Below, one piece after another: positions 3,673 through 21,231 of a stretch of DNA of 32,532 nt. Source of the DNA: Lachnospiraceae bacterium (GTDB lineage Bacteria > Bacillota > Clostridia > Lachnospirales > Lachnospiraceae). The notes under the pieces are model-generated. The model was not told where the DNA came from. It did no database searches and worked only from the letters and a program-made list of their open reading frames with translations. Where the stretch lies: NCBI GenBank assembly GCA_015057515.1, contig SVED01000017.1:1-32532 (forward strand). Reading direction: 5' to 3'. The position numbers and the translations under genes are program-made. How positions within the stretch are numbered: position 1 is the first letter of the stretch; each line of letters opens with the position of its first letter.

Positions 3673-4958
3673 TTTTTATGTTTTTGTAATTTGTTTGAAT
3701 CTATTCCGTATAACAATGCAAGTCCTATGCATATCACACTTACCATAAGAACTCTGTAGGTGAAAAAATAGTGCAATGTTGAGTGGTTGTTAAGAATCAT
3801 AAATCTTAGAAGAGGTATTGTTCCTATTACAAACATAAGATTTGAAAAGTAACAGGGCTCTTTTTCTTTCTTGAACAAATAGTAAATGGATAAAATTACT
3901 ATCATACATATAAATACAAATAAGTGTCCGTTTTCCGTAAATGAAAATGGAAAAATACAAGCAAGGTTACTATTTATAGAGGTGAATATGGATTCTATAA
4001 AAGGAATGTTTGCTGTTTCACCACTTATGCGGTAGCCAGCTTGAGACAAAGCCTCTTTAAAACAATTTTTCTGTAAAACTATTGAGGCGATGGACCACTT
4101 TGCAATAAAGCAGGAAGCATAGCCCAATAGCCACATTATGCCAGACCTTACCAGATAAAAAAAACCGTCCTTGAATGATGGGATTTCTTGTCTTTTTTCC
4201 CTAAATAGTAGTATAATAAGCACAGGTATTAATAGTGTGATTGTTTCTGTGGTTAAAAAATCAAAAAAAGCAGTGAAGCTACCCACAATCAGGAAAAAAG
4301 TGGAGAAATCTTTTTTGCCTTTACAACACATAATCATACTAGATATAGAAGCGATAAACATAATTAAGAATGTCCAAGCATATTCCATGGATTGTGGTAT
4401 GTACCATGGCGATATTGAAATCAAACCTATGATAAATATTGCACTGATTTTCCAATTAAATATTTTTCCTAAAAAAAGTGCTTGACATATACATAGTATT
4501 AGTAGTAGTATAAATAGGTTTATATAAAAAACCTTGATGTCCCCCCAAACAAGAAAAGATCTTACAATTGACAGGGAGCCATGCCAGTATCTTGTATAGT
4601 CATAATTGGGTAATAAATTACTGGTCACTGCGGCAAGAAGGTTTTCATTTTCGTTGGCAGTGTCCAGATGATAATAACTGGATTTCATCACTGCAGTGAT
4701 AGGATGTTCGTCATCGTATCCCCATGCAATCCCCAGTATAATAGAGTCGGCATACCTATCTATGACTGAGCTTTTATCTTCTTTATCCACCATGAAAAAT
4801 ACAGGTTTAGATGCAAGGTATTCCGCAGAGCTTTTCATATTATCTTTGATTGATTTTTTTGGTATAACAGCTACACCAACCAAAAGCCCTAACTGTATGA
4901 TGGTAATGAGCAATATAATAGCTATGTATTTACATATTTTGATAAGGTTGTTTTTCAT
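3669..4958 (-). CDS. Polytopic membrane protein of unknown function (GT-C-like topology)
   Basis: 429 aa with an N-terminal membrane helix (residues about 9-32), a roughly 100-residue extracytoplasmic loop carrying DYTRYWHGS, then about nine more hydrophobic segments to the C-terminus. A large first outer loop with acidic and aromatic residues followed by many helices resembles lipid-linked-sugar GT-C glycosyltransferases, and the RYWHG motif recurs from memory in uncharacterised Firmicutes membrane proteins. No catalytic motif is certain, so no function is assigned. The start ATG has a modest SD (GGAAGG). It is divergent from the large signalling operon, whose first product is a secreted protein, and could act on the cell surface, but this is only a positional hint. 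Confidence 0.6.
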   Translation of the reverse strand: MKNNLIKICKYIAIILLITIIQLGLLVGVAVIPKKSIKDNMKSSAEYLASKPVFFMVDKEDKSSVIDRYADSIILGIAWGYDDEHPITAVMKSSYYHLDTANENENLLAAVTSNLLPNYDYTRYWHGSLSIVRSFLVWGDIKVFYINLFILLLILCICQALFLGKIFNWKISAIFIIGLISISPWYIPQSMEYAWTFLIMFIASISSMIMCCKGKKDFSTFFLIVGSFTAFFDFLTTETITLLIPVLIILLFREKRQEIPSFKDGFFYLVRSGIMWLLGYASCFIAKWSIASIVLQKNCFKEALSQAGYRISGETANIPFIESIFTSINSNLACIFPFSFTENGHLFVFICMIVILSIYYLFKKEKEPCYFSNLMFVIGTIPLLRFMILNNHSTLHYFFTYRVLMVSVICIGLALLYGIDSNKLQKHKK

Positions 4959-5092
4959 TAAGACACCTTCCTAGTTTTGCTAATTTGAAGTTTATCATAA
5001 TTAGTTGATAACCTCAAGATTATATAAATTGAATATATAGAGTGTTTTTAGATTCGTTTACAAGTTAAAAAGGAGTGTAAAGGAGGTTACTT
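4959..5092. other. Divergent intergenic region upstream of the signalling operon
   Basis: A very AT-rich 134-bp spacer. On the minus strand TTGAGG-17 bp-TAAACT could serve the membrane protein gene. On the plus strand no convincing sigma-A promoter is seen; TATAAA and TATATA hexamers exist but lack a correctly spaced -35, so an activator or another sigma factor is possible. The first operon gene has a clear AAAGGAGG SD. Confidence 0.4.
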
Positions 5093-7135
5093 ATGAAGAG
5101 GAGGCTAAAAAATTTAATTGCCATTATGGTTGCCGCAATATTGGTGCTAAACTATATTCCGCAAAGTCTTATTGAGGCAGTGGCAGCAAACTATGACATA
5201 ACTGATGGAAATAGTCTGGATGTAGAAGGGGATCACAGCGAGGACTATTATACTGTCATGGGAAGTGGTGCGACAGCTACCTTGAATGTTTTATCAGGAG
5301 CTAATGTTGGAACCATCAGTGTATCAGGTGATATGTCAGTGGTTACAATCAATTCATCTACCACTATTAATGAATTAAGCGTTGGCTTAAATCCAACAGT
5401 ATATTCTGAGGGAACTATTACAACTGCTACCGTAGAGGGTGGAACGGTAACAATTGCCGGTGGCTCAGTCACTAATCTGACGTCAGTAGGTGGTGAAGTG
5501 ACAATTACAGGAGGTTATATATCTAATCTATCTGTTGATTCAGGAATAATGGATAGTGGAGATGTTGATTTTACTGGTGGAACAGTGGATTCCATTCAAG
5601 TTTTTGATGGTGCATTAAATCTTGTCGCAGGTACATATCCTTCCATAGAAGTTAGTGGATACAATGCTGTATTATATCTGCAGGGAGATATATCAATTGC
5701 AGATTTTTCTTATGATGGAATTATAAGTGGTGCGTATAGTGTTACGGTTACTGATTCGCTTTATGTGGGTGTTGATGGATACAGCGATGCTAATATAAAT
5801 GTAACAGAGAGTACACATATTACAACAGATGCAGATTGCTCAGTATTTTATAATGGGGTCGAATATCAGTTGTATGCGGGTTTGATGGATGTAACAATGA
5901 ATGATTTGTTTTATTATGACATTTCAGGAAATAATCTGGATTTTGGTGTGAAAACTGAGGGTTACGATGCTGTAACTGAAAAAACAATTACAATTACAAA
6001 TGGTGGCCAGCTTGATGCAAGTATAACTTTAGGAACTTCCGCAGACTTTACAGTTTCAGCTACTTTGGATTCGGTTGCGGTAACTGGCAATACTTTTTTG
6101 ATTCCTGTAGAAGGTTCAGTGATTCTTACTTTTGCCCCTAAGGGCGGTCTTGAAGTTGGTACATATCAGGAGGAGTTCCCTATCACTGTTGCTGATAAAA
6201 CAGAAATAGTGAATTTGAATTTTAAGGTTAGTGAAAAACCAGCGGGAACAGGAAGCGTAACTATGGCAGATTACTATTATGGAGGAAAGGCTTCTAATCC
6301 TGTAGTTGCATCAACTACTAACGGTGTAGGTAATGTTAAGGTTGAGTATAAGGTATATAAGGCAGCAGATAGTACATACACCACAAAGGTTCCTACTGCA
6401 GTAGGTGATTACACAGTTAGAGTTACCTTCCCTGGCAACGATTCCTACGCAACTGTTTATGCAACTGATGATTTTTCAATAGGCTACTTGCCTATACCAC
6501 AGTCGCCATACAGTATAGAAGGAACAAAGGGTGACAATAACTATTACAATACATCAGTCAATATTATTCCTGCAGAAGGATATTTGGTGTCTACATCCTT
6601 AGATGGAGAATATAAGGAATCTGTTACTTACAATGTGTCAACTTATTTAGAAGAAATATATTTTAAAAAGATAGCTACTGGCGAAAAAACAGATAAGTTG
6701 GTTATTTCAGATATAAGGATAGATGCATATGCTCCTTCAATACCTAGCATAAAAGATAAGGATACATATTATGCTGATGATATGGATGTTATTATAAACG
6801 ATGCAAATCTTTTATCGGTGACAATAAACGGAGAAGACGTGGAGGTTATAGGAACTCGTGCAACAGCTAAGCTTCAGTCTGATGGAGGAATAGAGGAATA
6901 TGAAATAGTTGCAACAGATATAGCGGGAAATGTGACAACAGTCAAAATTACTGTTGCAGCTGAGTGGGTAAAAGACAATATTATTCCAAATGGTAAGGCA
7001 GTTAAACTTTTAGGTGGTAAGTCTTATAAGCTTTCATCCGGACAATGGACAGTAAGTGGTGATGCTACAGTTTACAATGGAAATACAACATTTTATGTAA
7101 GTGGTGATGGAAAATACACTTTTACACAACAGTAA
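5093..7135 (+). CDS. Secreted surface protein with beta-solenoid-like repeats
   Basis: 680 aa. Positively charged start (MKRRLK), a hydrophobic helix and a small-residue cleavage region around AVAA (residues 30-33) make a Sec signal peptide. Residues about 50-240 are short Gly/Ser/Thr/Val repeats (GGTVTIAGGSVTNLTSVGG type) that resemble a parallel beta-solenoid. Residues about 280-380 look like an Ig-like beta sandwich, residues about 388-460 resemble MBG-type bacterial repeats (YYGGKASNPV ... GDYTVRVTFPG), and the rest is further beta-rich modules. There is no LPXTG motif, SLH domain or C-terminal membrane anchor, so attachment is unclear. It is the first gene of a codirectional nine-gene run, 20 nt before the FecR-domain gene, which suggests that it is the output or the ligand partner of that system. 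Exact function is unknown. Confidence 0.75.
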   Translation: MKRRLKNLIAIMVAAILVLNYIPQSLIEAVAANYDITDGNSLDVEGDHSEDYYTVMGSGATATLNVLSGANVGTISVSGDMSVVTINSSTTINELSVGLNPTVYSEGTITTATVEGGTVTIAGGSVTNLTSVGGEVTITGGYISNLSVDSGIMDSGDVDFTGGTVDSIQVFDGALNLVAGTYPSIEVSGYNAVLYLQGDISIADFSYDGIISGAYSVTVTDSLYVGVDGYSDANINVTESTHITTDADCSVFYNGVEYQLYAGLMDVTMNDLFYYDISGNNLDFGVKTEGYDAVTEKTITITNGGQLDASITLGTSADFTVSATLDSVAVTGNTFLIPVEGSVILTFAPKGGLEVGTYQEEFPITVADKTEIVNLNFKVSEKPAGTGSVTMADYYYGGKASNPVVASTTNGVGNVKVEYKVYKAADSTYTTKVPTAVGDYTVRVTFPGNDSYATVYATDDFSIGYLPIPQSPYSIEGTKGDNNYYNTSVNIIPAEGYLVSTSLDGEYKESVTYNVSTYLEEIYFKKIATGEKTDKLVISDIRIDAYAPSIPSIKDKDTYYADDMDVIINDANLLSVTINGEDVEVIGTRATAKLQSDGGIEEYEIVATDIAGNVTTVKITVAAEWVKDNIIPNGKAVKLLGGKSYKLSSGQWTVSGDATVYNGNTTFYVSGDGKYTFTQQ

Positions 7136-7155
7136 TTAGTTAGTGAGGTATACTT

Positions 7156-8082
7156 ATGGGAAGTAAAGCAAAAAAGAAGTTAATAATTATAATATCTGCG
7201 ATTGTTGCTCTCGTTGCAGTTGTAGCAGTTGCTTTGGTACTTTTACTGAAGAAAGATGAAACCTATAGAATTATTAAGGTTTATGAGATTCAAGGTGAAG
7301 CAGTAGTTACACGTGAAGGCACTGGAGAAATGTCCGCATACGAGAATATGGTTTTGGAATCAGGCGACAATGTTCAATTAAAATCTGGTGCTATGACTCT
7401 TAAACTAGATGATGATAAATATGTATATGTTGAACCTGGAACAGAATTTAATATTATAGCTACAGGTTCAAAAGCAAACAGCAAAACTAAGATAGATCTT
7501 CAATCTGGCGCAATTATTAATGATGTACAGCAGGCATTGAGCGATGATTCATCTTATGAGATTAATACACCTAACTCAAATATGGCGGTTAGAGGTACTG
7601 TGTTTAGAGTATATACATATGTTGAAGATGGTATTCGTTACACCAAAGTATCGGTTTTTGAGGGTAAGGTTGATAGTAACTTAGTATATGCTGATGGTAG
7701 GGTTTCGGAGAATAGTGTTGCAGTAGAACAAAATAAAGAGACTATTATATATGAGGACGATGTGACAACAGATTACCTCATTGATGTATCAGATATAGAT
7801 TACAATCAGTTGCCACCAGAGGCTATAAAAGCACTTATTAGTATTTCTGAAGCAGGTTCTGATTTAGGAGTTACTTCCGATGAGTTGAAGGCGATGCTAG
7901 AGGCGGTTGCAGTAGGTCCATTTACTGTTACATTTATGTATAATGGTGCTGTATTTGGAACACAAACTGTTGAGTCGGGACAATGTGCAACAATTCCTTC
8001 ACTTATGCCGGCAAACAGTGGAAACTGGGATTTTGATTTCACGGAGGAGATATATAGCGATACAGTTATTGAATGGAGGTAG
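7156..8082 (+). CDS. Membrane-anchored FecR-domain protein
   Basis: 308 aa. After a lysine-rich N-terminus a single membrane helix spans residues about 9-31, with the rest predicted outside the membrane. Residues about 40-200 match the FecR fold: a motif on an internal or external stress-type sensor in which GEAVVTREG, a LESGDNVQLKSGAMTLKL strand series, the IDLQSGAI segment and the highly typical TPNSNMAVRGTVFRV are visible. The C-terminal about 50 residues (FTVTFMYNGAVFGTQTVESG) look like one Listeria/Bacteroides-type beta repeat. In Gram-negative bacteria FecR passes signals to an ECF sigma factor; no sigma gene lies here, and in Gram-positives the domain is probably a cell-envelope binding module. 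The stop codon is 4 nt before the next start, so translational coupling is likely. Confidence 0.85.
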   Translation: MGSKAKKKLIIIISAIVALVAVVAVALVLLLKKDETYRIIKVYEIQGEAVVTREGTGEMSAYENMVLESGDNVQLKSGAMTLKLDDDKYVYVEPGTEFNIIATGSKANSKTKIDLQSGAIINDVQQALSDDSSYEINTPNSNMAVRGTVFRVYTYVEDGIRYTKVSVFEGKVDSNLVYADGRVSENSVAVEQNKETIIYEDDVTTDYLIDVSDIDYNQLPPEAIKALISISEAGSDLGVTSDELKAMLEAVAVGPFTVTFMYNGAVFGTQTVESGQCATIPSLMPANSGNWDFDFTEEIYSDTVIEWR

Positions 8083-8086
8083 TTCC

Positions 8087-9265
8087 GTGGATGCAGAGAG
8101 ATTAAGACAAATTCCAACTATTCAAGAATTTTTTAAGATTGACCCATGTGAAGAACTCAAAGAGGGGACTCGTATTCTTCTTGAAGCCATGGTAGAAAAA
8201 AACATTCCTCAGGGTGAAGATATTGTTACATTTGGTGCATCAAATGATGATGGTATGTACATAATTTTATCCGGCGTAACAGATGTGTTTGACGCAAAGG
8301 GCAACAAGATAAATACTCTTTTTGAGGGGGATTTTATCGGTGAGCTTGGACTTATCAATGACGATAAACGTGGTGCTACAGTAAGAGCAACAACTGATGT
8401 TTCCTGTGCAAATATATCAAAGGCACTTTTTGAAGAGATTGCTTCCAAGAACAGAAAGATATATGGCACATTTATGAATATGCTCTACACTAAAACCACT
8501 AAGTTGGTGGCAGAACAAGAAAGAATTAAGTCAGAGCTTGCAGTTGCAACAAGAATTCAAGCAGAGTGTCTTGAAAATGATTTTACGTCATTTAATCAGT
8601 ATGACCATGTGAAGCTTACAGCAGCTATGCGTCCTGCTAAGGAAGTGGGAGGAGACTTTTACGATATGTTTATGATTGATGATAAGCGTATGTGTTTCCT
8701 TATAGCGGACGTATCAGGAAAAGGCGTTCCGGCAGCTATATTTATGAGTATGGCAAAGACGCACATAAAGAATTATGCCACTCTTGGTCTGCCTTTGGCA
8801 GAAGTAGCTCAAAGAGTAAATAACCAACTCTGTTACAAAAATGAATCAGGTATGTTTGTGACTGCTTTTATATGTGTTTTAGATTTGGAAACTAACGATG
8901 TTACATTTATAAATGCCGGACACAATAAACCATTCATAATTGACGAGGAAGGTAGGTTTTCTATGATACCTGCCAAAGTTAATATGGCGTTTGGTATGAT
9001 GGAAGGTGTTCCATATAGGGAGCAGCATTTGGATTTACCTAAGGGTAATTGCATATATATGTACACTGATGGAGTTACTGAGGCGTTGAATACAGAAGAT
9101 AAATTCTTCGGTGATGATAGATTGAGACATGTATTAAATGAACATATATCTGAAGCAGGCGATGTAGATTCCTTTGTGAAGTCTATGTATGATGAAGTCG
9201 ATGCTTTTGCAGGTGATGCTGTGCAAGCAGACGATATAACAATGGTATACCTTAGCAGGCGATAA
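8087..9265 (+). CDS. Cyclic-nucleotide-binding domain / PP2C (SpoIIE/RsbU-type) phosphatase
   Basis: Predicted cytoplasmic serine phosphatase gated by a cyclic nucleotide. The start is GTG 8087, set by GGAGG 7 nt upstream, giving 393 aa; the frame is open upstream but lies inside the FecR gene. Residues about 20-135 form a cNMP-binding domain whose phosphate-binding cassette GDFIGELGLINDDKRGATVRA keeps the Glu (E86) and Arg (R95) that contact cAMP in CRP-type proteins. A helical linker with LAVATRIQAECL (about 140-162), the usual lead-in of RsbU-type phosphatases, precedes the PP2C domain (about 175-392) with metal Asp in GGDFYD (D190, D193), DVSGKG (D208), DGVTEA and ADDITMV. The next gene encodes a CHASE2 cyclase, and the kinase and STAS partners follow, so the likely substrate is the phosphorylated STAS protein at 12430. 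Confidence 0.92.
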   Translation: MDAERLRQIPTIQEFFKIDPCEELKEGTRILLEAMVEKNIPQGEDIVTFGASNDDGMYIILSGVTDVFDAKGNKINTLFEGDFIGELGLINDDKRGATVRATTDVSCANISKALFEEIASKNRKIYGTFMNMLYTKTTKLVAEQERIKSELAVATRIQAECLENDFTSFNQYDHVKLTAAMRPAKEVGGDFYDMFMIDDKRMCFLIADVSGKGVPAAIFMSMAKTHIKNYATLGLPLAEVAQRVNNQLCYKNESGMFVTAFICVLDLETNDVTFINAGHNKPFIIDEEGRFSMIPAKVNMAFGMMEGVPYREQHLDLPKGNCIYMYTDGVTEALNTEDKFFGDDRLRHVLNEHISEAGDVDSFVKSMYDEVDAFAGDAVQADDITMVYLSRR

Positions 9266-9282
9266 AGTTGGGAGGATACAAT

Positions 9283-11091
9283 TTGAAAAAAACGCTTAGA
9301 AATATTATAGAATCAATTTTTGTTGCCATATTGGTATTTGTGCTTACTGTAACAAACATGTTTTTTCGCTTGGATTACATGTTAAAGGATGCTTTGTATC
9401 AGATTCCAAGAGGTGTTTCAAGTCAAATTAAAATAATTGCTATCGATGAAAAAACTTTAGAGGAATTAGGCCCAATTAATACATGGTCTAGACAGTACTA
9501 TGCAGATTTGATAGAGATACTCAATTCAAATCAGGATTCTAAACCAGCAGTTATTGCCTTCGATATTCTTTTTTCTGGTTATTTTGGTGAGAATAATACT
9601 ATTACAGAGGGTGACAAGGCTTTTGCACATGCGGCAGAAGAAAGTGGAAATGTAGTTGCTGTTACTCAGTTTAAATATGAGGAAAAAGCTGCTCTTAACG
9701 AAGAAGGACTGGTTTCATATCCTATAGAGGATATTTTTTATCCATATCAGGAGTTGAAGGAAGTTGTTACTTTAGGTTACTCGAATGTGTCACAAGACTC
9801 AGATTCTACTGTACGAAGAATTACTTTAAAGGAAAATTATAATGGACAAGACGTATATACATTTTCAAAAGCTATATATGATATGTATTGCCAGTCTAAT
9901 GGGATAGTACCGAATGAAGTTTCTACTGATAAGTATGGTATGACTATTATAAACTATTCTGGAAAACCAGGTGACTATGAACACATTTCTATGGTGGATG
10001 TTTTAAATGGAAATATAGATCCACGAGCATTTACAAACAGTATTGTTATTGTTGGTGCTTATGCCACAGGTATGCAGGATAATTTTAATGTCCCTAATGG
10101 TTATAGTAATCAGATGTATGGGGTTGAGGTACATGCAAACATACTTCAATCTATGATGGAAGGAAGATTCTCAATAAACGCAAATCCATATTTGGTTGGA
10201 ATTATAACAGGTATCCTGTGTGGAATCATTCATTTTATCTTCAAAAAGGCAAAAATATGGTTATCTACCATATTGCTGATACTTGCTATTGGACTTGAAT
10301 TATTCATAGGAGTGGTCATAAATAACAATGGCAAGGCTATAAGTTTAATATATGTTATTATTGCCTTGGTATTGTCATATATATATGCTCTTGCAGTAGG
10401 GTACATATTAGAAAAGCTTAAGCGTAAAAAGGTGATAAATGCATTCAAAAAATATGTTGCTCCAGAGGTTGTTGAGGAGATATCCAAGAAGGGTGATTTC
10501 ACAATCAAATTAGGTGGAGAAAATAGAGATATAGCAGTTCTCTTTGTGGACATCAGAGGTTTTACAACTATGTCAGAAATTCTTTCGCCTGAGGAAGTTG
10601 TGGCAATTTTGAATAATTATCTCAATCTTACAACAAAAGCAATTTTCAAGAATAAGGGTACTCTTGATAAGTTCGTGGGTGATGCTACCATGGCGGTGTT
10701 TAATTCACCATTTGATTTGGACGATTACGTGTTTAGGGCGGTTTGTACAGCTTTAGATATAGTAGAAGGCTCAAAAGAGTTAGAAGAAAAGCTTATGAAG
10801 GAGTTTGGAAGAACCATAGGCTTTGGTGTAGGCGTAAATTGTGGACCGGCAATTGTAGGAAATATCGGCTGTGAATTTAGAATGGATTTTACAGCTATAG
10901 GAGACACGGTTAATACGGCAGCCAGACTAGAGTCTAATGCTAAAAAAGGTCAGGTTCTTATTAGTCAGGAAGTATACGACAGAGTGAAGGATAGGATTGA
11001 AGTTGAAGAAATAGGAGAGATACCACTTAAAGGTAAATCTAACGGTGTTTTCGTTTATTCGCTTTTGTCGGTTAAGCGAGAAGATGTATAA
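9283..11091 (+). CDS. CHASE2-domain class III adenylate cyclase
   Basis: Membrane sensor enzyme predicted to convert ATP to cAMP. The start is TTG 9283 (602 aa) because GGAGG lies 7 nt upstream. An N-terminal helix (about 8-30) leads into an extracytoplasmic CHASE2 domain (about 35-300, with IKIIAIDEKTLEELG, AFDILFSGYFG, and YGVEVHANILQSM near the end), then three membrane helices (about 305-385) and a cytosolic cyclase domain. The catalytic set is intact: metal Asp D423 (FVDIRGFT) and D467 (KFVGDATM), the adenine-selecting pair Lys463 and Thr537, and the transition-state Asn544 and Arg548 (GDTVNTAARLE). The Lys/Thr pair is the one common in bacterial adenylate cyclases, so cAMP rather than cGMP is inferred. 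The gene follows the cNMP-binding phosphatase by 17 nt. Confidence 0.93.
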   Translation: MKKTLRNIIESIFVAILVFVLTVTNMFFRLDYMLKDALYQIPRGVSSQIKIIAIDEKTLEELGPINTWSRQYYADLIEILNSNQDSKPAVIAFDILFSGYFGENNTITEGDKAFAHAAEESGNVVAVTQFKYEEKAALNEEGLVSYPIEDIFYPYQELKEVVTLGYSNVSQDSDSTVRRITLKENYNGQDVYTFSKAIYDMYCQSNGIVPNEVSTDKYGMTIINYSGKPGDYEHISMVDVLNGNIDPRAFTNSIVIVGAYATGMQDNFNVPNGYSNQMYGVEVHANILQSMMEGRFSINANPYLVGIITGILCGIIHFIFKKAKIWLSTILLILAIGLELFIGVVINNNGKAISLIYVIIALVLSYIYALAVGYILEKLKRKKVINAFKKYVAPEVVEEISKKGDFTIKLGGENRDIAVLFVDIRGFTTMSEILSPEEVVAILNNYLNLTTKAIFKNKGTLDKFVGDATMAVFNSPFDLDDYVFRAVCTALDIVEGSKELEEKLMKEFGRTIGFGVGVNCGPAIVGNIGCEFRMDFTAIGDTVNTAARLESNAKKGQVLISQEVYDRVKDRIEVEEIGEIPLKGKSNGVFVYSLLSVKREDV

Positions 11092-11131
11092 TAATTTTTG
11101 ATTTTCAGTTATATGACCAGGAGGAGTATGC

Positions 11132-11911
11132 ATGAGGATTAACAGATTACTTATTGTTCCCAAACTAGATAAGCTAGAAGAGTATAGCAATTTAGCAAAA
11201 GCATATAATTGTGGTTTTGAATATAATGATTTCTTTCTTCCTGAAGTGCTAGATGATTCACAAGGTTTAGAGCGAAGGGTTGAGAGTTATCTGTCTAGTA
11301 ATATGTTGCCAGAATATACTACTCTTCATGGTGCTTTTTTAGATGTTAACATTGCATCATCGGATAAGGAAATATTTAATGTATCAGATAAAAGAATAAG
11401 GCAGAGTATGGAGGTTGCCTCGAAATTAGGGGTAACAGCAGTTGTATTTCATACAAATTATATTGCTAATTTTTTACAGGAGTCATATAGGGAAAGCTGG
11501 GTGGCTAGCAATGTGGTTTATTGGAAGGAGATTTTAAAAGAGTATCCCAACATAAATATTTACATTGAAAATATGTTTGATATGGATTGGGAACTTTTGC
11601 TAAAGCTAGGACAAGCTATGAAGGATGAAACCAATTTTGGTATATGCCTGGATTATGCTCATGCAGGTGTTTTTGGCGATGAGACAAAGGTGGCAGAATG
11701 GGTTGTGGAGCTGGCGCCATATGTAAAGCACATACACATAAATGATAATGATTTTGTGTCAGATTTACATCAGGCATTAGGTGATGGAAATATTGATTGG
11801 CATTATTTTAAAGAGCTGTATAACACTTACCTAAACAAAGCATCTGTTCTTATTGAAGTTTCGGATATAGAAAAAACCAAAAAGTCCTTGGAGTTTTTGA
11901 GAAATATATAG
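11132..11911 (+). CDS. TIM-barrel sugar phosphate isomerase/epimerase-like protein
   Basis: 259 aa with the fold of the xylose isomerase-like/AP endonuclease 2 superfamily. Candidate metal ligands sit on successive strand ends: TLHGAF, FHTNY, the Glu of IENMFD, the Asp/His of CLDYAHAGVF, KHIHINDND, and the Glu of LIEVSD. These enzymes isomerise or epimerise sugars, or cleave at abasic DNA sites; the short length suits the sugar branch, but the substrate cannot be read from sequence. ATG 11132 follows AGGAGG by a short spacer. It is embedded between the cyclase (40 nt upstream) and the RsbW-like kinase (37 nt downstream) with no hairpin on either side, so it seems to be a true operon member, which is unexpected for a metabolic enzyme. 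Confidence 0.75.
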   Translation: MRINRLLIVPKLDKLEEYSNLAKAYNCGFEYNDFFLPEVLDDSQGLERRVESYLSSNMLPEYTTLHGAFLDVNIASSDKEIFNVSDKRIRQSMEVASKLGVTAVVFHTNYIANFLQESYRESWVASNVVYWKEILKEYPNINIYIENMFDMDWELLLKLGQAMKDETNFGICLDYAHAGVFGDETKVAEWVVELAPYVKHIHINDNDFVSDLHQALGDGNIDWHYFKELYNTYLNKASVLIEVSDIEKTKKSLEFLRNI

Positions 11912-11948
11912 ATGTGGAGTGTGTGAAAGCTTAAATAGGAGATAAGGT

Positions 11949-12374
11949 ATGGGAAATATTTTGAAGGAACTAGTGGTAGAAGCGACCTTGGATAATTTGG
12001 ATAAAGTTACTGGTTTTCTTGAAGAAAATCTAATGGCTGCAGATTGTCCTATGAAAACAACCATGAAGATTTTAGTTTCTGTAGAGGAAGTGTACGTAAA
12101 TGTATCTAGCTATGCCTATGGCAAAGAAACAGGGAAATGCACGATTTTACTCGAAATTGAAACCAATGAAGATAATGGTCTAGCAAGAATAACCATAAAG
12201 GATAAGGGAAAAGCTTTCAACCCATTGGAGCAGGAAGATCCGGACATTACATTGAAGGCAGATGATAGACCTATAGGAGGTTTAGGTATTCTTATGGTAA
12301 AGAAAAGTATGGACAAGGTTGATTATAAATATTTATGCGGAGAAAACATATTAGTAGTGGAAAAAATATGGTAA
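11949..12374 (+). CDS. RsbW/SpoIIAB-like serine kinase (HATPase_c, anti-sigma type)
   Basis: 141 aa, the usual length of stand-alone GHKL anti-sigma kinases. The ATP-binding Bergerat fold motifs are visible: N box VEEVYVNVSSYAYG (E46/E47, N51), G1 box IKDKGKAFNP (D85, G87) and G2 box PIGGLGILMV (110-114). Such proteins phosphorylate a STAS antagonist on Ser and in the unphosphorylated-antagonist-free state bind a sigma factor or another target. The STAS gene follows directly and a PP2C phosphatase lies upstream, completing a partner-switching set. No sigma factor gene is present in the window, so the protein that this kinase binds is unknown. Confidence 0.9.
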   Translation: MGNILKELVVEATLDNLDKVTGFLEENLMAADCPMKTTMKILVSVEEVYVNVSSYAYGKETGKCTILLEIETNEDNGLARITIKDKGKAFNPLEQEDPDITLKADDRPIGGLGILMVKKSMDKVDYKYLCGENILVVEKIW

Positions 12375-12429
12375 ATATGGTAGAATTGGTATAAATATTT
12401 TGTGGAAAAATACTAAAGGAGGGTTATTT

Positions 12430-12732
12430 ATGGAAATAATAAAAAAAGAACATGACGAGGAAGTTACTATGTCCATAGTAGGTCGTTTGGACACTAATAG
12501 TGCACCGACACTGACCAAGGAGTTAGAAGAGTCCTTAGTGGATGGGGTTGAGGTATTTGTTCTTGATATGAGTGAGTGTGATTATGTAGCCAGTTCAGGA
12601 CTTAGAGCTATCCTTAGTGCTCAAAAGAAAATGAATTCCCTACATGGAAAAATGATTGTAAGAAATGTTATCGGAGATGTTATGGAAGTTTTTGAAATGA
12701 CAGGTTTTGCAGATATATTGACATTTGAGTAA
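12430..12732 (+). CDS. STAS-domain anti-sigma factor antagonist (RsbV/SpoIIAA-like)
   Basis: 100 aa single STAS domain. The start is ATG 12430, preceded by AAAGGAGGG; a TTG-initiated version 30 nt upstream has no ribosome site. The core reads VFVLDMSECDYVASSGLRAIL; the conserved Ser that RsbW-type kinases phosphorylate corresponds to S55 or S56. The Asp that normally precedes it (DSSGL or DSTGL) is Ala here. The protein is expected to be phosphorylated by the kinase encoded at 11949 and dephosphorylated by the PP2C protein at 8087, releasing or capturing the kinase. It is followed after 18 nt by the GGDEF gene. Confidence 0.92.
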   Translation: MEIIKKEHDEEVTMSIVGRLDTNSAPTLTKELEESLVDGVEVFVLDMSECDYVASSGLRAILSAQKKMNSLHGKMIVRNVIGDVMEVFEMTGFADILTFE

Positions 12733-12750
12733 GGAACAAGGAGGTAACTT

Positions 12751-14034
12751 ATGGATTTTAGCAAAGAACTAATTGAATTCGTCTCTGAAAAGGTTGGCGG
12801 TGTGGTTGTCATAGCTACAGGCTCAAGTGAGATTATGTATGCTGATACATTCTTTAAAGAAAAGTATGGCAAAGACATTGTGGGTATGGATGCAGACGAA
12901 ATATTTACGTGGATGAATGATTGCCCGGAACTCTCTCCAGGGGCGCCAGCTGTAGAATGGGAGAATATTGATACAGATTCAAAGAAATATTATAAGTTTA
13001 ATTCTGCAATTATTGAAAAGGAAGAAAAAAAATATACTTTCCATCAAGTAGTTGATATTACAGAGTATATGGGGCTTAATCGTGATATCACTAAGTATAT
13101 GTCTTTCTTCAAAAGGCTTGCCAGTTTCCAGACAGCAGTATTAGAAAAATTGTCAGACACTTATCATGAGTTATTGCCAATGCTTACTGATTATTTTAAA
13201 ACAAGCAAGGCTTATATGATGGTTCAGAGAGAGGATAAGCTTGAAGTTGCGGCATATTCAAAGATGGGTAATGCTTATTTTAACGACAGAATCCAAATGA
13301 CAGATGCCATAGATGCAGTATTTGAATTTAGTACTGAGGATGATATCCTTTATGATAGCTTACCAATTGATATTCAAGAAGTGTTTAAACTGAGTGGAAG
13401 TAGTAGTGACAGTTCATATGTGCTTTTGGGAGCAGGTGATGTGTCAGGACAAAAGTATGCTATATTCCTTAATATATGGCCTAATATGGACAGGGAATCA
13501 ATGGCTGAAAAGACATTGATAAACGTTATAAAGTTATACACAGAAAATGCTATTATGCGTGAGAGACTCATATATGAAAATGAGCACGATCATCTTACAG
13601 GACTCTACAATAAGGGTAAATATTTGGCTCGTATAGAAAACAAATATCCAAATCGTAAGTCTATAGCTGTTTATAACTTCGATGTAAATAACCTAAAGAC
13701 TATGAATGATACTTATGGTCATGAGGCAGGAGATAAGCTCATTATCAAAGCAGCTGATAGTATCAGAAAGGTAACAGGAACAGGAATTCATGGTTATCGT
13801 ATGGGTGGAGATGAGTTTCTTATGGTAGCGTGTGATCTTTCGGAGGCAGAGGCAAATAATCTTTTGTCACGTTGGGAAACAGAGTTAGAGAGACTCAATG
13901 ATATAGATGATGGTATAGAGTGTGTGATGGCGGTAGGTATGGTTTACGCAGGCGAGGGATACAATTTAGACGAAGTCCTTGCTAAGGCAGATGAACTAAT
14001 GTATGAAGATAAAAAAGCAAAGAAAAATGTTTAA
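12751..14034 (+). CDS. GGDEF-domain diguanylate cyclase with PAS/GAF-like N-terminus
   Basis: 427 aa, soluble, predicted to make c-di-GMP from two GTP. Residues about 1-110 look PAS-like (IATGSSEIMYADTFFKEKYG) and about 120-270 GAF-like, but these calls rest on pattern only. The C-terminal cyclase domain starts at HDHLTGLYNKGKY, has the metal/nucleotide segment FDVNNLKTMNDTYGHEAGD, and an intact active site MGGDEF (G352-F356). The RxxD inhibitory site expected five residues upstream is absent (IHGYRM instead), so no product inhibition at that site. ATG 12751 has AAGGAGG 7-8 nt upstream. Position between the STAS gene and pilT suggests that it links the partner switch to a pilus or surface output. 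Confidence 0.92.
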   Translation: MDFSKELIEFVSEKVGGVVVIATGSSEIMYADTFFKEKYGKDIVGMDADEIFTWMNDCPELSPGAPAVEWENIDTDSKKYYKFNSAIIEKEEKKYTFHQVVDITEYMGLNRDITKYMSFFKRLASFQTAVLEKLSDTYHELLPMLTDYFKTSKAYMMVQREDKLEVAAYSKMGNAYFNDRIQMTDAIDAVFEFSTEDDILYDSLPIDIQEVFKLSGSSSDSSYVLLGAGDVSGQKYAIFLNIWPNMDRESMAEKTLINVIKLYTENAIMRERLIYENEHDHLTGLYNKGKYLARIENKYPNRKSIAVYNFDVNNLKTMNDTYGHEAGDKLIIKAADSIRKVTGTGIHGYRMGGDEFLMVACDLSEAEANNLLSRWETELERLNDIDDGIECVMAVGMVYAGEGYNLDEVLAKADELMYEDKKAKKNV

Positions 14035-14066
14035 GTATACATAACGAGTATAAGGAGGGTTACAAA

Positions 14067-15110
14067 ATGAATTTTAATGAGCTGATTGACTACGCAAAGA
14101 GTGAAGGTTGTTCTGATGTACATATTACAGTTGGTACTGCTATTGCAATTAGAAAGTTTGGAAAGCTTTTATTGCTTGATCCGGTTCCAACTGCTGAAGA
14201 ATCCGAGACAATGATTTTAGAGTCACTTACTGCAGAACAGAGAAAAAAGGTATTGAATGGTCAGGACTTGGATTTTGCTATGATTACTCCTACAGGAAGA
14301 CTTAGAGCAAATATTTATCATCAGAGAAACAATCTTGCTGCTACGTACCGTATCCTTAAAAATGAAGTTCCAACCTTTGATGAATTAGAAATTCCAGATG
14401 CAGCACGTAAGCTTATTAATGAGCCTAGAGGACTTGTACTCATTACCGGACCTACAGGAAGTGGTAAGACAACCACACTTGCATCTATGATTGATTATAT
14501 TAACAAGAAGCAGGCAAAGCACGTTATGACTATCGAGGATCCTATAGAGTATGTTTATTACCATGCTAAATCTATGATTCATCAGAGAGAAGTTGGAAAG
14601 GATGTTGATTCTTTTGCAACAGCTCTTCGTTCATCACTTAGAGAAGATCCTGATATCATCCTCGTTGGTGAGATGAGAGATTATGAGACAATTAGTGCAG
14701 CTATTACTGCTGCTGAGACAGGACATTTGGTTCTTTCTACTCTTCATACAACTAGTGCTCCACAGACTGTTGAGCGTATTCTTGATGCATATCCTCATCA
14801 TGGTCAGGCACAGGCAAGAACACAGCTTGCTAACGTTCTTAGAGGCGTTGTTACACAGCAGCTTATTCCTAGAGATGATAAGGAAGGTATGACTATAGCT
14901 ACAGAGATACTTATTAACACAGAGGCTGTAGCAGCTCAGATAAGAGACAATAAGACTCACCAGATTTTATCTACAATTCAGGCAGGTACAATGCATGGTA
15001 TGCATACTATGAATGCTGACTTAAGACGTCTTGTTCGTGAGGGCAAGATTACCAACACAACAGCCCTCAAATACTGTACTAACGTAAAGGACTACGAGAG
15101 CCAGCGATAA
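14067..15110 (+). CDS. pilT: Type IV pilus retraction ATPase PilT
   Basis: 347 aa, the typical PilT length. This hexameric secretion-type ATPase depolymerises type IV pili, driving twitching motility. Visible motifs in order: N-terminal SDVHITVG, Walker A GPTGSGKT (128-135), Asp box VMTIEDPIEY, Walker B region DIILVGEMRD (196-205, PilT-type GEMRD), and His box GHLVLSTLHTTSA. The C-terminus ADLRRLVREGKIT is also PilT-like. No pilin, PilB, PilC or prepilin peptidase gene is in the window, so it is an orphan retraction motor placed last in a signalling operon. SD AAGGAGGG precedes ATG 14067. Its stop codon TAA is the first three bases of the 422-bp palindrome that follows. Confidence 0.93.
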   Translation: MNFNELIDYAKSEGCSDVHITVGTAIAIRKFGKLLLLDPVPTAEESETMILESLTAEQRKKVLNGQDLDFAMITPTGRLRANIYHQRNNLAATYRILKNEVPTFDELEIPDAARKLINEPRGLVLITGPTGSGKTTTLASMIDYINKKQAKHVMTIEDPIEYVYYHAKSMIHQREVGKDVDSFATALRSSLREDPDIILVGEMRDYETISAAITAAETGHLVLSTLHTTSAPQTVERILDAYPHHGQAQARTQLANVLRGVVTQQLIPRDDKEGMTIATEILINTEAVAAQIRDNKTHQILSTIQAGTMHGMHTMNADLRRLVREGKITNTTALKYCTNVKDYESQR

Positions 15111-15529
15111 TAACTATTGCCCAGATAAAACACCTGCCTGTCCGGTGGGCTGTGGGTATATAACTATACCAAACCGTTTGAGAACGCGAGTACTTAGCGA
15201 AAAGAAATGGGGATGCACTGGGTGGATATAGACACAGACATACCAAACACGCTCTCGCTCGTCTCGAACGCAGGAGTACTAAATGAAAAAAAATAGAAAC
15301 AGGGAGAAAATATTGTTTTAAAACATTTTCTCCCTGTTTCTATTTTTTCTCATTAAGTGCTCGCGTTCTCAAACGGTTTGTTATTGTCTGTGCCTATATC
15401 CACCCAGTGCATCCCCATTTCTTTGAGGTTAGTACTCCTGCGTTCGAGACGAGCGAGAGCGTGTTTGGAATAGTTATATACCCACATCCCACCGGATAGG
15501 CAGGTGTTTTACCTAAGCAATAGTTATTA
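15108..15529. repeat. 422-bp composite inverted repeat spanning the pilT/ABC-transporter convergent junction
   Basis: The block order on the plus strand is A (15108-15168), B (15169-15198), D (15199-15240), C (15241-15285), a central hairpin (15288-15348), then B' (15351-15380), D' (15381-15425), C' (15426-15469) and A' (15470-15529), where the prime means reverse complement. A/A' and D/D' are near-identical over about 60 and 40 bp. B and C are related to each other (both begin CCAAAC and end AGTACT-A) but are exchanged between the arms, so B faces C' and C faces B'. The outer boundary TAATAACTATTGC contains the stop codons of both convergent genes. No terminal duplication, transposase or ORF of note is inside. 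Confidence 0.9.
15288..15348. terminator. Bidirectional terminator at the centre of the palindrome
   Basis: A perfect 24-bp stem (15288-15311 with 15325-15348) has a GC-rich core CAGGGAG/CTCCCTG and a 13-nt loop containing GTTTTAAAAC. It is flanked by a run of A on the left and of T on the right, so it terminates in both directions for pilT and for the ABC transporter operon. Confidence 0.85.
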
Positions 15530-16291
15530 CTGACGGTTATCTTGAAGCTTTCCGAGGAATTCTTGAATACGCTCGTTAGTGGAGTTGAAGACTTCTTCCG
15601 GAGTGCCTTCTACCGCGATAAGGCCTTTGTCCATAAAGATGACTCTGTCAGAAATATTTCGCGCAAAGTTCATCTCGTGAGTTACGATAACCATAGTCAT
15701 GTGTCGCTCTGCTAAGGATTTGATAACCTTTAGAACTTCACCGGTAAGTTCTGGATCGAGGGCTGAGGTTGGCTCATCAAAGAAGAGAACCTTTGGATTT
15801 AGGGCTAAGGCTCTTGCTATTGCAACTCTTTGTTGCTGTCCGCCAGACAACTGGGAAGGATAGTAATCAGCTTTGTCTGATAGTCCCATTTTTTCTAGAA
15901 GCTCCATTGCCTCGGCCATAACTTCCTTTTTGTTGCGCTTTTGTACATTGATAGGAGCATCTGTAATGTTTTTAAGGACAGAGTAGTGAGGAAAGAGATT
16001 AAAGTTTTGGAAAACCAACCCGAAATTATTCTTGATGTCCTTAAGCTCTTTACCCTTGGCATAGATGGAACGGCCATCTACAAGAGCAACAGCAGGTCGC
16101 TCCAGATAATAAATCTCGCCATAATCTAAGGTCTCCAGCATAGTGGCAATTCTAAGAAGTGTAGATTTACCTGAACCAGATGGACCGATGATTGAAACAA
16201 CCTCACCTTCATTTACGTGAAGGGAAATATCCTTAAGAACCTCCAAGTCTCCAAAGGATTTTTTGATGTTAGACATAGATAAATATTCCAT
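15527..16291 (-). CDS. Polar amino acid ABC transporter, ATP-binding protein
   Basis: 254 aa cytoplasmic ATPase of the GlnQ/HisP type that drives uptake of a polar amino acid. Walker [11 protein letters not shown]-loop [14 protein letters not shown], signature [15 protein letters not shown], Walker [14 protein letters not shown] and H-loop VIVTHE are all present. A modest insertion between the A strand and the Q-loop ([16 protein letters not shown]) is longer than in standard GlnQ. It is the last gene of a three-gene operon (binding protein, permease, ATPase) and begins 11 nt after the permease stop. The stop codon lies inside the palindromic element. Confidence 0.95.
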
Positions 16292-21103: not shown

Positions 21104-21112
21104 GACTTTGAC

Positions 21113-21205
21113 AATTTAAGGGGCGCTGATAATTGAGTCGGCTGAGATAAGATGTGGTCATCTTGAACCCATGAACCTGATCTGGATAATGCCAGCGTAG
21201 GAAAT
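21113..21205 (+). ncRNA. TPP riboswitch (THI element) aptamer
   Basis: The conserved THI-box parts occur in order: AAGGGGCGCT, the CTGAGA loop of P3 (CTGAGATAAGATGTGG), GAACCCATGAACCTGATC and TGGATAATGCCAGCGTAGGAA. The aptamer binds thiamine pyrophosphate. A terminator hairpin about 25 nt downstream is the expected expression platform, so high TPP should switch off the downstream thiamine/HMP uptake genes. The 3' limit is approximate. Confidence 0.96.
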
Positions 21206-21231
21206 GCTTATTTTTTGTATAAGATTTTTGC

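Follow-up and report, generated by a model that had tools for sequence, protein, structure and literature searches.

A conserved Lachnospiraceae gene cassette that may relay cyclic AMP to cyclic di-GMP through a phospho-switch

A nine-gene run in a Lachnospiraceae genome

We analyzed a stretch of 32,532 nucleotides (hereafter the window) from a Lachnospiraceae bacterium (contig SVED01000017.1, assembly GCA_015057515.1), in which nine codirectional open reading frames (ORFs) on the + strand span positions 5093–15110. An initial annotation had read this run as a signalling operon joining cyclic AMP (cAMP), partner switching, cyclic di-GMP (c-di-GMP) and pilus retraction. The features are as follows, with cNMP standing for cyclic nucleotide monophosphate and TIM for triosephosphate isomerase.

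5093–7135, + strand: "sec", presumed secreted protein, a variable accessory (680 aa; no family above cut-off in Pfam or NCBIfam)
7156–8082, + strand: FecR-domain protein that presumably partners the CHASE2 sensor outside the cytoplasm (PF04773 42.6 bits, cut-off 24)
8087–9265, + strand: cNMP-binding PP2C/SpoIIE phosphatase, presumed cAMP receiver (PF00027 56 bits, PF07228 174 bits)
9283–11091, + strand: CHASE2 class III adenylate cyclase (PF05226 162 bits, PF00211 94 bits)
11132–11911, + strand: endonuclease IV-superfamily enzyme with a TIM barrel, a candidate cAMP phosphodiesterase (PF01261 89.6 bits)
11949–12374, + strand: RsbW-like serine kinase (PF13581 70.9 bits)
12430–12732, + strand: STAS protein, presumed phosphorylated switch (PF01740 61.5 bits; TIGR00377 above cut-off)
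12751–14034, + strand: GGDEF diguanylate cyclase, variable in its N-terminal regions but with residues 102–137 as a conserved linker (PF00990 90 bits)
14067–15110, + strand: PilT paralogue, a usual but inconstant member, which exceeds the cut-off of the PilT/PilU ATPase family (TIGR01420 430.4 bits, cut-off 319.1)
15083–15554, no strand assigned: nested inverted repeat with a central terminator-like hairpin and copies in its own genome, presumed operon end

Likely start codons with a ribosome-binding site are GTG 8087 for the phosphatase, TTG 9283 for the cyclase and ATG 12430 for the STAS protein, the last being preceded by GGAGG, so that the TTG 12400 start given in the ORF list is probably too early. 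With these starts the intergenic gaps are, in order, 20, 4, 17, 40, 37, 55, 18 and 32 nucleotides, in agreement with the nine codirectional genes and 4–55 nucleotide gaps first described. The Pfam domains above cut-off (FecR; cNMP_binding and SpoIIE; CHASE2 and Guanylate_cyc; AP_endonuc_2; HATPase_c_2; STAS; GGDEF; T2SSE) likewise bear out the family assignments of eight of the nine genes, but the "beta-repeat" label given to sec is not confirmed, because this protein passes no family cut-off. The run was also said to hold no internal hairpin; terminator-like sites in positions 4950–15600 are at chance level (4 seen, 4.5 expected), both of those on the + strand fall within coding sequence, and the sole long stem, of 20 pairs and listed on the - strand at 15295–15341, lies 3' of pilT.

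The nested inverted repeat at 15083–15554, of about 380 bp, lies between convergent genes with the terminator-like hairpin at its centre. Related copies, about 71–87% identical, occur on at least eight other contigs of the same genome, and the repeat is possibly a mobile intergenic element.

Conservation of the cassette among relatives

The nine-gene run is a conserved cassette. Our genus sample comprised 37 genomes (given G numbers here, and their loci L numbers), including the window's own genome, which is 85% complete; a close relative of the cyclase (63–83% identity) occurs in 20 of the 36 congeners, and thus in 21 of 37 genomes counting its own. We tabulated gene order at 29 loci, counting the window and two loci apiece from G009 and G016. 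Their core runs phosphatase, cyclase, (TIM enzyme), kinase, STAS, GGDEF, usually with FecR in front. The STAS and GGDEF genes are adjacent in 24 of these loci and the kinase and STAS genes in 23; the phosphatase–cyclase pair is also adjacent in 23, a tally that includes L083, in which STAS, kinase and phosphatase stand in a different order and the gene before the cyclase encodes a cNMP-DUF2225 protein. FecR directly precedes the phosphatase in 21 of the 29 loci (in L083 that neighbour is again the cNMP-DUF2225 protein). This protein (L083:5347–6555), which adjoins the cyclase in a more distant cassette, is a second possible cAMP receiver. A sec-like ORF is present in 22 of 27 relative loci searched, with varying lengths and some duplications, and in L045 and L046 a gene on the opposite strand stands between sec and fecR.

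The genes flanking the run mostly differ among genomes, with only G009 and G033 sharing the window's downstream genes. Within the genus sample, most of the flank upstream of the G034 cassette is matched in just two genomes, G034 itself and G021; as both bear the cassette, they offer no empty site that would mark the boundaries of a gain or loss. Because the core order is kept in many genomes despite differing flanks, the gene run is more than chance. That the genes are merely co-located and act in separate pathways is thus improbable: although sec, fecR, the TIM gene and pilT are each absent, doubled or moved in some loci, and G016 carries FecR and cyclase on one contig and phosphatase, kinase, STAS, GGDEF and PilT on another, the cyclase, the full-length phosphatase and the TIM enzyme are jointly absent from the same 16 genomes. 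G023 holds only a remnant consisting of pilT, a GGDEF gene in two frames, STAS and a piece of FecR.

An RpoB tree covers 27 of the 37 genomes, since nine gave no match and G029, with a fragment of only 153 bases, was left out. On it, the presence of the cyclase needs five changes, four of them forced by well-supported branches; this count fits gain and loss equally, and some absences may be assembly gaps. Among named genomes we considered the best 80 of at least 455 confirmed matches and read 16 neighbourhoods, the other 64 relatives matching within query residues 10–191 only, at 25–40% identity. Among the matches listed, 15 close relatives (L069–L083, several being the same contigs as loci of the genus genomes) are metagenome-assembled genomes, assigned to Lachnospiraceae (13), Eubacteriales (1) and Clostridia (1), and the title names an animal for six of them, deer or goat gut. 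The cassette-bearing bacteria belong to a gut group known mainly from metagenomes.

The adenylate cyclase and its putative cAMP receiver

The cyclase motifs VDIRGFT, LDKF.GD and TAIGDTVNT.AR are invariant in 26 sequences, and they contain the residues that we take to define a class III adenylate cyclase: two metal-binding Asp, the substrate-specifying Lys and Thr/Asp, and the transition-state Asn and Arg. In the phosphatase, E86 and R95 are invariant in 21 sequences and align with E72 and R82 of CRP, presumably the ribose and phosphate contacts of the cNMP cassette. The window's own genome has one PF00211 match, the run's cyclase, and one PF00027 match, the run's phosphatase. Counting full-length phosphatase matches only, 20 of the 37 genus genomes have both cyclase and phosphatase, one has the cyclase only (G032), none has the phosphatase only and 16 have neither. 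In addition, PF00027 matches nothing beyond the phosphatase in 17 of the 20 phosphatase-bearing genomes, and nothing whatsoever in 14 of the 16 that lack the cyclase. On supported branches of the RpoB tree, cyclase and phosphatase change together in 3.9 of 4 independent pairs on average.

A related arrangement is found in G040, from another family of the order, where a gene encoding a cNMP-GGDEF fusion starts 1.6 kb downstream of a CHASE2 cyclase (L052); by its domains, this appears to be the same two ends, cNMP and GGDEF, joined without the phospho-switch. Taken together, the sole PF00211 and cNMP proteins of the window's genome, the co-occurrence of cyclase and phosphatase, and this fusion make the proposed step from cAMP to the phosphatase well supported by gene content.

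The initial annotation had also stated that cAMP signalling is uncommon in Clostridia, and adenylate cyclases are reported to be absent from most species of the phylum in the available part of one study (PMC5217690). The cyclase is not very rare in this order: of 24 genomes sampled from other families, 6 have a match at E 1e-30, and the ability to make cAMP is thus nothing exceptional there. Separately, eight of the cyclase-bearing genomes (L029, L030, L031 and others) have a second protein that matches only the CHASE2 part of the cyclase query.

A cyclase beside a cyclic-nucleotide effector could also be a Pycsar-type anti-phage system, and the cyclase does match PycC models (best 6.5e-27), while the cNMP domain of the phosphatase matches Pycsar TIR effectors and PycC in PADLOC. 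We rejected this defence role as very improbable, since these matches span the shared cyclase and cNMP domains only, no TIR domain was found by Pfam in the nine proteins, the cyclase has a CHASE2 sensor, and the receiver, a phosphatase, stands with a kinase and a STAS protein.

The TIM-barrel enzyme

The initial annotation assigned no function to the TIM gene, which ranks with the most tightly linked components of the cassette. It occurs in 19 of the 37 genus genomes, comprising 19 of the 20 with a full-length phosphatase and none of the other 17, the exception being G022, which is 75% complete and whose contig ends inside pilT. The gene directly follows the cyclase in 16 loci; in G015 and G026 it stands just after pilT on the opposite strand, in G016 it is on a third contig, and in five genomes (G003, G008, G012, G018 and G031) it occupies another site next to SpoIID- and M23-type genes, where all but G003 have a phosphorylase on its other side (neighbour domains were scanned in L176 only, the others being assigned by BLAST). 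Hence the gene moves and yet, G022 aside, is present wherever the phosphatase is; the two go the same way in all five independent pairs on the RpoB tree, and we rejected a chance passenger on account of this shared presence and absence. In L176, L177, L179 and L180 the moved TIM genes of different species are only 64–79% identical, yet the phosphorylases beside them share about 99% identity, perhaps through recent transfer or strong conservation of the phosphorylase.

The trinuclear zinc site of E. coli endonuclease IV (Nfo) has nine ligands, and every one of these positions is kept in 24 of 24 TIM sequences; this comparison was with Nfo only, using the residue numbers that we take to be those of the ligands, with their letters confirmed on the fetched E. 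coli sequence. The enzyme scores far below the NCBIfam cut-offs of deoxyribonuclease IV (47.2 bits against 244) and the cobamide phosphodiesterase CbiR (41 bits against 105), which makes another substrate likely.

In genomes without the TIM gene, six of seven CHASE2-cyclase loci have a gene of the metallo-beta-lactamase (MBL) fold, and the seventh lies on a 5-kb contig. An MBL profile found nothing in 26 cassette loci (a set outside which the window itself lies), a TIM profile found nothing in those seven cyclase loci, and the MBL protein of G032 went unmatched at E 1e-8 in the 36 remaining genus genomes. The MBL fold is that of the known class II cAMP phosphodiesterases. Among solved structures, the nearest relatives of the L052 MBL protein include RNase Z-type enzymes; those of the L051 protein include an unnamed hydrolase, with Apyc1 ranking much lower. 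The simplest reading of this pattern is that the MBL and TIM genes represent one candidate cAMP eraser replacing another, and the TIM enzyme would be the best candidate in the cassette for a cAMP phosphodiesterase.

We nonetheless lean slightly towards a TIM enzyme that is not a cAMP phosphodiesterase and acts instead on c-di-GMP or pGpG, a cofactor such as a cobamide, DNA or a sugar phosphate, and accompanies the cassette on other grounds, a possibility compatible with our interpretation of the other genes. Its best named families are those two low-scoring ones, the five relocated genes have the SpoIID/M23-type and phosphorylase surroundings described above, and the TIM query, which matched 19 genus genomes, gave no match at E 1e-6 in 24 genomes of other families, a search with no positive control there. 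Against such a substrate stand the agreement of TIM and phosphatase in 36 of 37 genus genomes, even where the gene has moved, and the MBL-fold gene found in its stead at cyclase loci of TIM-less genomes.

Partner switch and c-di-GMP output

The kinase carries the motifs EE..vN, D.G and GGlGI (25 sequences) and the STAS protein the motif YvaSsGLR (24 sequences), where capitals are invariant and, for the kinase, small letters are at least 80% conserved. In the GGDEF protein, mean pairwise identity over 13 sequences is 0.79 in the linker (residues 102–137), 0.46 in residues 1–95, 0.45 in residues 146–265 and 0.71 in the GGDEF region; the conserved linker fits a STAS binding site resembling the stalk of SiaD, from the SiaABCD system compared below.

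CHASE2 cyclases elsewhere in the order also have c-di-GMP enzymes nearby. In G047, G048, G052 and G053, from four other families, the cyclase is near a GAF-HD_5 protein (L053–L056), in which we infer HD_5 to be a c-di-GMP phosphodiesterase, and in G032 it is near a GAF-GGDEF protein (L051). Overall, a c-di-GMP enzyme lies within about 3.5 kb of the cyclase at six of seven cyclase loci in genomes without a full-length phosphatase, the seventh (G058) being the locus on the short contig.

Since sigma-factor switches are built from members of the RsbW and STAS families, and about 270 residues precede the catalytic domain of the GGDEF protein, the partner switch might instead control a sigma factor or an unlinked target, with the GGDEF protein set by its own N-terminal regions and cAMP having two parallel outputs. 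We consider this unlikely, as Pfam finds no sigma factor among the nine proteins, the STAS and GGDEF genes are so often adjacent, and the GGDEF linker is far more conserved than both flanking regions. Conserved order and published precedents lend support to a putative step from phosphatase, kinase and STAS to the GGDEF protein, as originally proposed.

A PP2C/STAS/RsbW-like cluster in G052 (L067) stands next to an eCIS_core protein. Rfam matches from five sources (the window, L033, L043, L045 and L064) include no c-di-GMP riboswitch; the only match, and the window's only one at gathering score, is a thiamine pyrophosphate (TPP) riboswitch at 21109–21221.

PilT and the pilus

G030 has a canonical pilus operon with its own PilT, to which the run's PilT, a paralogue, is about 48% identical; similar second PilTs occur in many congeners. 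Across the genus sample, 18 genomes have both this PilT and the phosphatase, two have PilT only, two the phosphatase only and 15 neither, a tally that includes two fragmentary PilT matches (G016, G022). PilT thus tracks the phosphatase in most genomes, in favour of the initial annotation, but the pilus output is weaker: pilT follows the orthologous ggdef in only 18 of 24 readable loci (one being the G023 remnant), and other PilT and T2SSF proteins are found in genus genomes both with and without the cassette. Of the six loci where it does not follow (L042, L070, L076, L077, L080, L083), L077 was unscanned and the other five have an unrelated next large ORF, namely a tRNA synthetase, a glycosyl hydrolase 43, a DUF815 protein, an aminotransferase and a member of the nucleoside phosphorylase family. 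G020 and G032 have this PilT elsewhere. At E 1e-20 the window's own genome has no PilT match besides that of the run, and its PF00482 matches are weak, the best being 6.6e-10.

The canonical PilB of G030 carries an MshEN domain, a domain that binds c-di-GMP in other bacteria, so c-di-GMP could reach pili without the run's PilT. PilT is the weaker link of the chain.

A proposed relay from cAMP to c-di-GMP

We interpret the run as a self-contained two-messenger relay, from cAMP through the phosphatase, kinase and STAS protein to c-di-GMP, with a probability of roughly 0.65. It is the best reading because the cassette is conserved, cyclase and phosphatase co-occur, the genome has a single PF00211 and a single cNMP protein, and a cNMP-GGDEF fusion exists. 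From gene order, motifs, shared presence and absence, and this fusion we infer every biochemical step, its sign and the signal. The FecR and CHASE2 domains would read the state of the envelope, with CHASE2 setting the activity of the adenylate cyclase, and the cAMP made would bind the PP2C phosphatase encoded next to the cyclase, at its cNMP domain. The RsbW-like kinase would phosphorylate the STAS protein and the phosphatase would take the phosphate off, one phospho-form of STAS then binding the GGDEF linker and setting c-di-GMP synthesis, as SiaC does with SiaD. The TIM enzyme may end the signal by hydrolysing cAMP, and PilT, found in most lineages, might let the switch act on pilus retraction.

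Several observations weigh against this relay. The phosphatase domain itself is not peculiar to it, because five of the 16 cyclase-less genomes (G011, G013, G017, G023, G029) match that domain only, from residue 115 onward, without the cNMP part. T127 and S128, the adenine contacts of CRP, are replaced by V141 and A142 in the alignment with the window's phosphatase; the ligand is consequently not certain, and cAMP is preferred over another cyclic nucleotide by inference. The finding of a sole cyclase covers PF00211 only, other adenylate cyclase classes not having been searched. G032 has the cyclase with neither phosphatase nor TIM enzyme, and on the FecR–cyclase contig of G016, whose neighbours were unscanned, neither phosphatase nor orthologous GGDEF protein was seen. 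With four to five independent pairs on supported branches of the RpoB tree, co-distribution is unable to reach p 0.05, and the Fisher values computed for it take no account of kinship. Pilus assembly genes are matched weakly in the window's genome, perhaps because its assembly, at 85% completeness, is incomplete. Finally, assignment of the kinase and STAS protein to the SiaB and SiaC families was rejected, as Pfam gives HATPase_c_2 and STAS/STAS_2.

On balance, the chain envisaged by the initial annotation, from the envelope through cAMP, phosphatase and STAS/kinase to c-di-GMP and the pilus, is partly supported, by gene content, order and precedents as far as c-di-GMP, with the pilus output weaker. 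A more specific version, in which one cyclase, one receiver and a new kind of dedicated eraser, namely a trinuclear-zinc TIM-barrel cAMP phosphodiesterase from the endonuclease IV superfamily, form a private cAMP circuit in Clostridia that carries an envelope signal via a partner switch to c-di-GMP, is tentative and rather doubtful. If the relay is real, cAMP would be wired directly to c-di-GMP by a phospho-switch in Clostridia, and if the TIM role holds, it would add a fold to the enzymes known to remove cAMP. Since one locus encodes maker, receiver, switch and output, a laboratory E. coli strain that lacks its own cyclase could serve to rebuild the relay and measure it.

Comparison with known systems

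We found no description of the whole cassette in the open-access literature with the terms used; parts of it resemble known systems. The pairing of FecR and CHASE2 is already known from Campylobacterota, where, according to the available portion of the report, a cluster comprises a CHASE2 adenylate cyclase, FecR, a cAMP phosphodiesterase and a TPR protein (PMC9239204). Like that cluster, the cassette has the CHASE2 cyclase beside FecR; it differs in holding the cNMP-phosphatase, the partner switch, the GGDEF protein and the TIM enzyme, and none of its nine proteins has a TPR match at E 0.01. HmpU, HmpV and HmpW of Nostoc punctiforme likewise form a partner switch, and their locus takes its name from hormogonium motility and polysaccharide; what HmpV acts on is reported to be unknown, and the available part of that report names no cAMP or diguanylate cyclase component (PMC8256260).

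The TIM enzyme shares the nine zinc-ligand positions with Nfo, and the best sequence matches among solved structures are MJ1311 and TTHB071, both uncharacterised, and several endonucleases IV; unlike Nfo, it falls far below the deoxyribonuclease IV cut-off and tracks the cNMP-phosphatase.

The closest layout is that of SiaABCD, Hsb (Pseudomonas aeruginosa) and Bgr (Sinorhizobium meliloti), in which partner switching sets a diguanylate cyclase and, as far as the accessible portions of the reports describe, a phosphatase, a kinase, a STAS-like protein and a diguanylate cyclase are encoded in one operon (PMC7647112, PMC8457831). Compared with SiaABCD, the phosphatase of the cassette carries a cNMP domain and has an adenylate cyclase of its own beside it, and the cassette adds a FecR/CHASE2 front end, the TIM enzyme and PilT. 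The cassette kinase and its presumed substrate match HATPase_c_2 and STAS/STAS_2 and no other Pfam family, and SiaB and SiaC presumably belong to different ones. Because its kinase and STAS protein are of other families, we do not file the cassette as a member of SiaABCD, despite its SiaABCD-like layout with a cAMP input.

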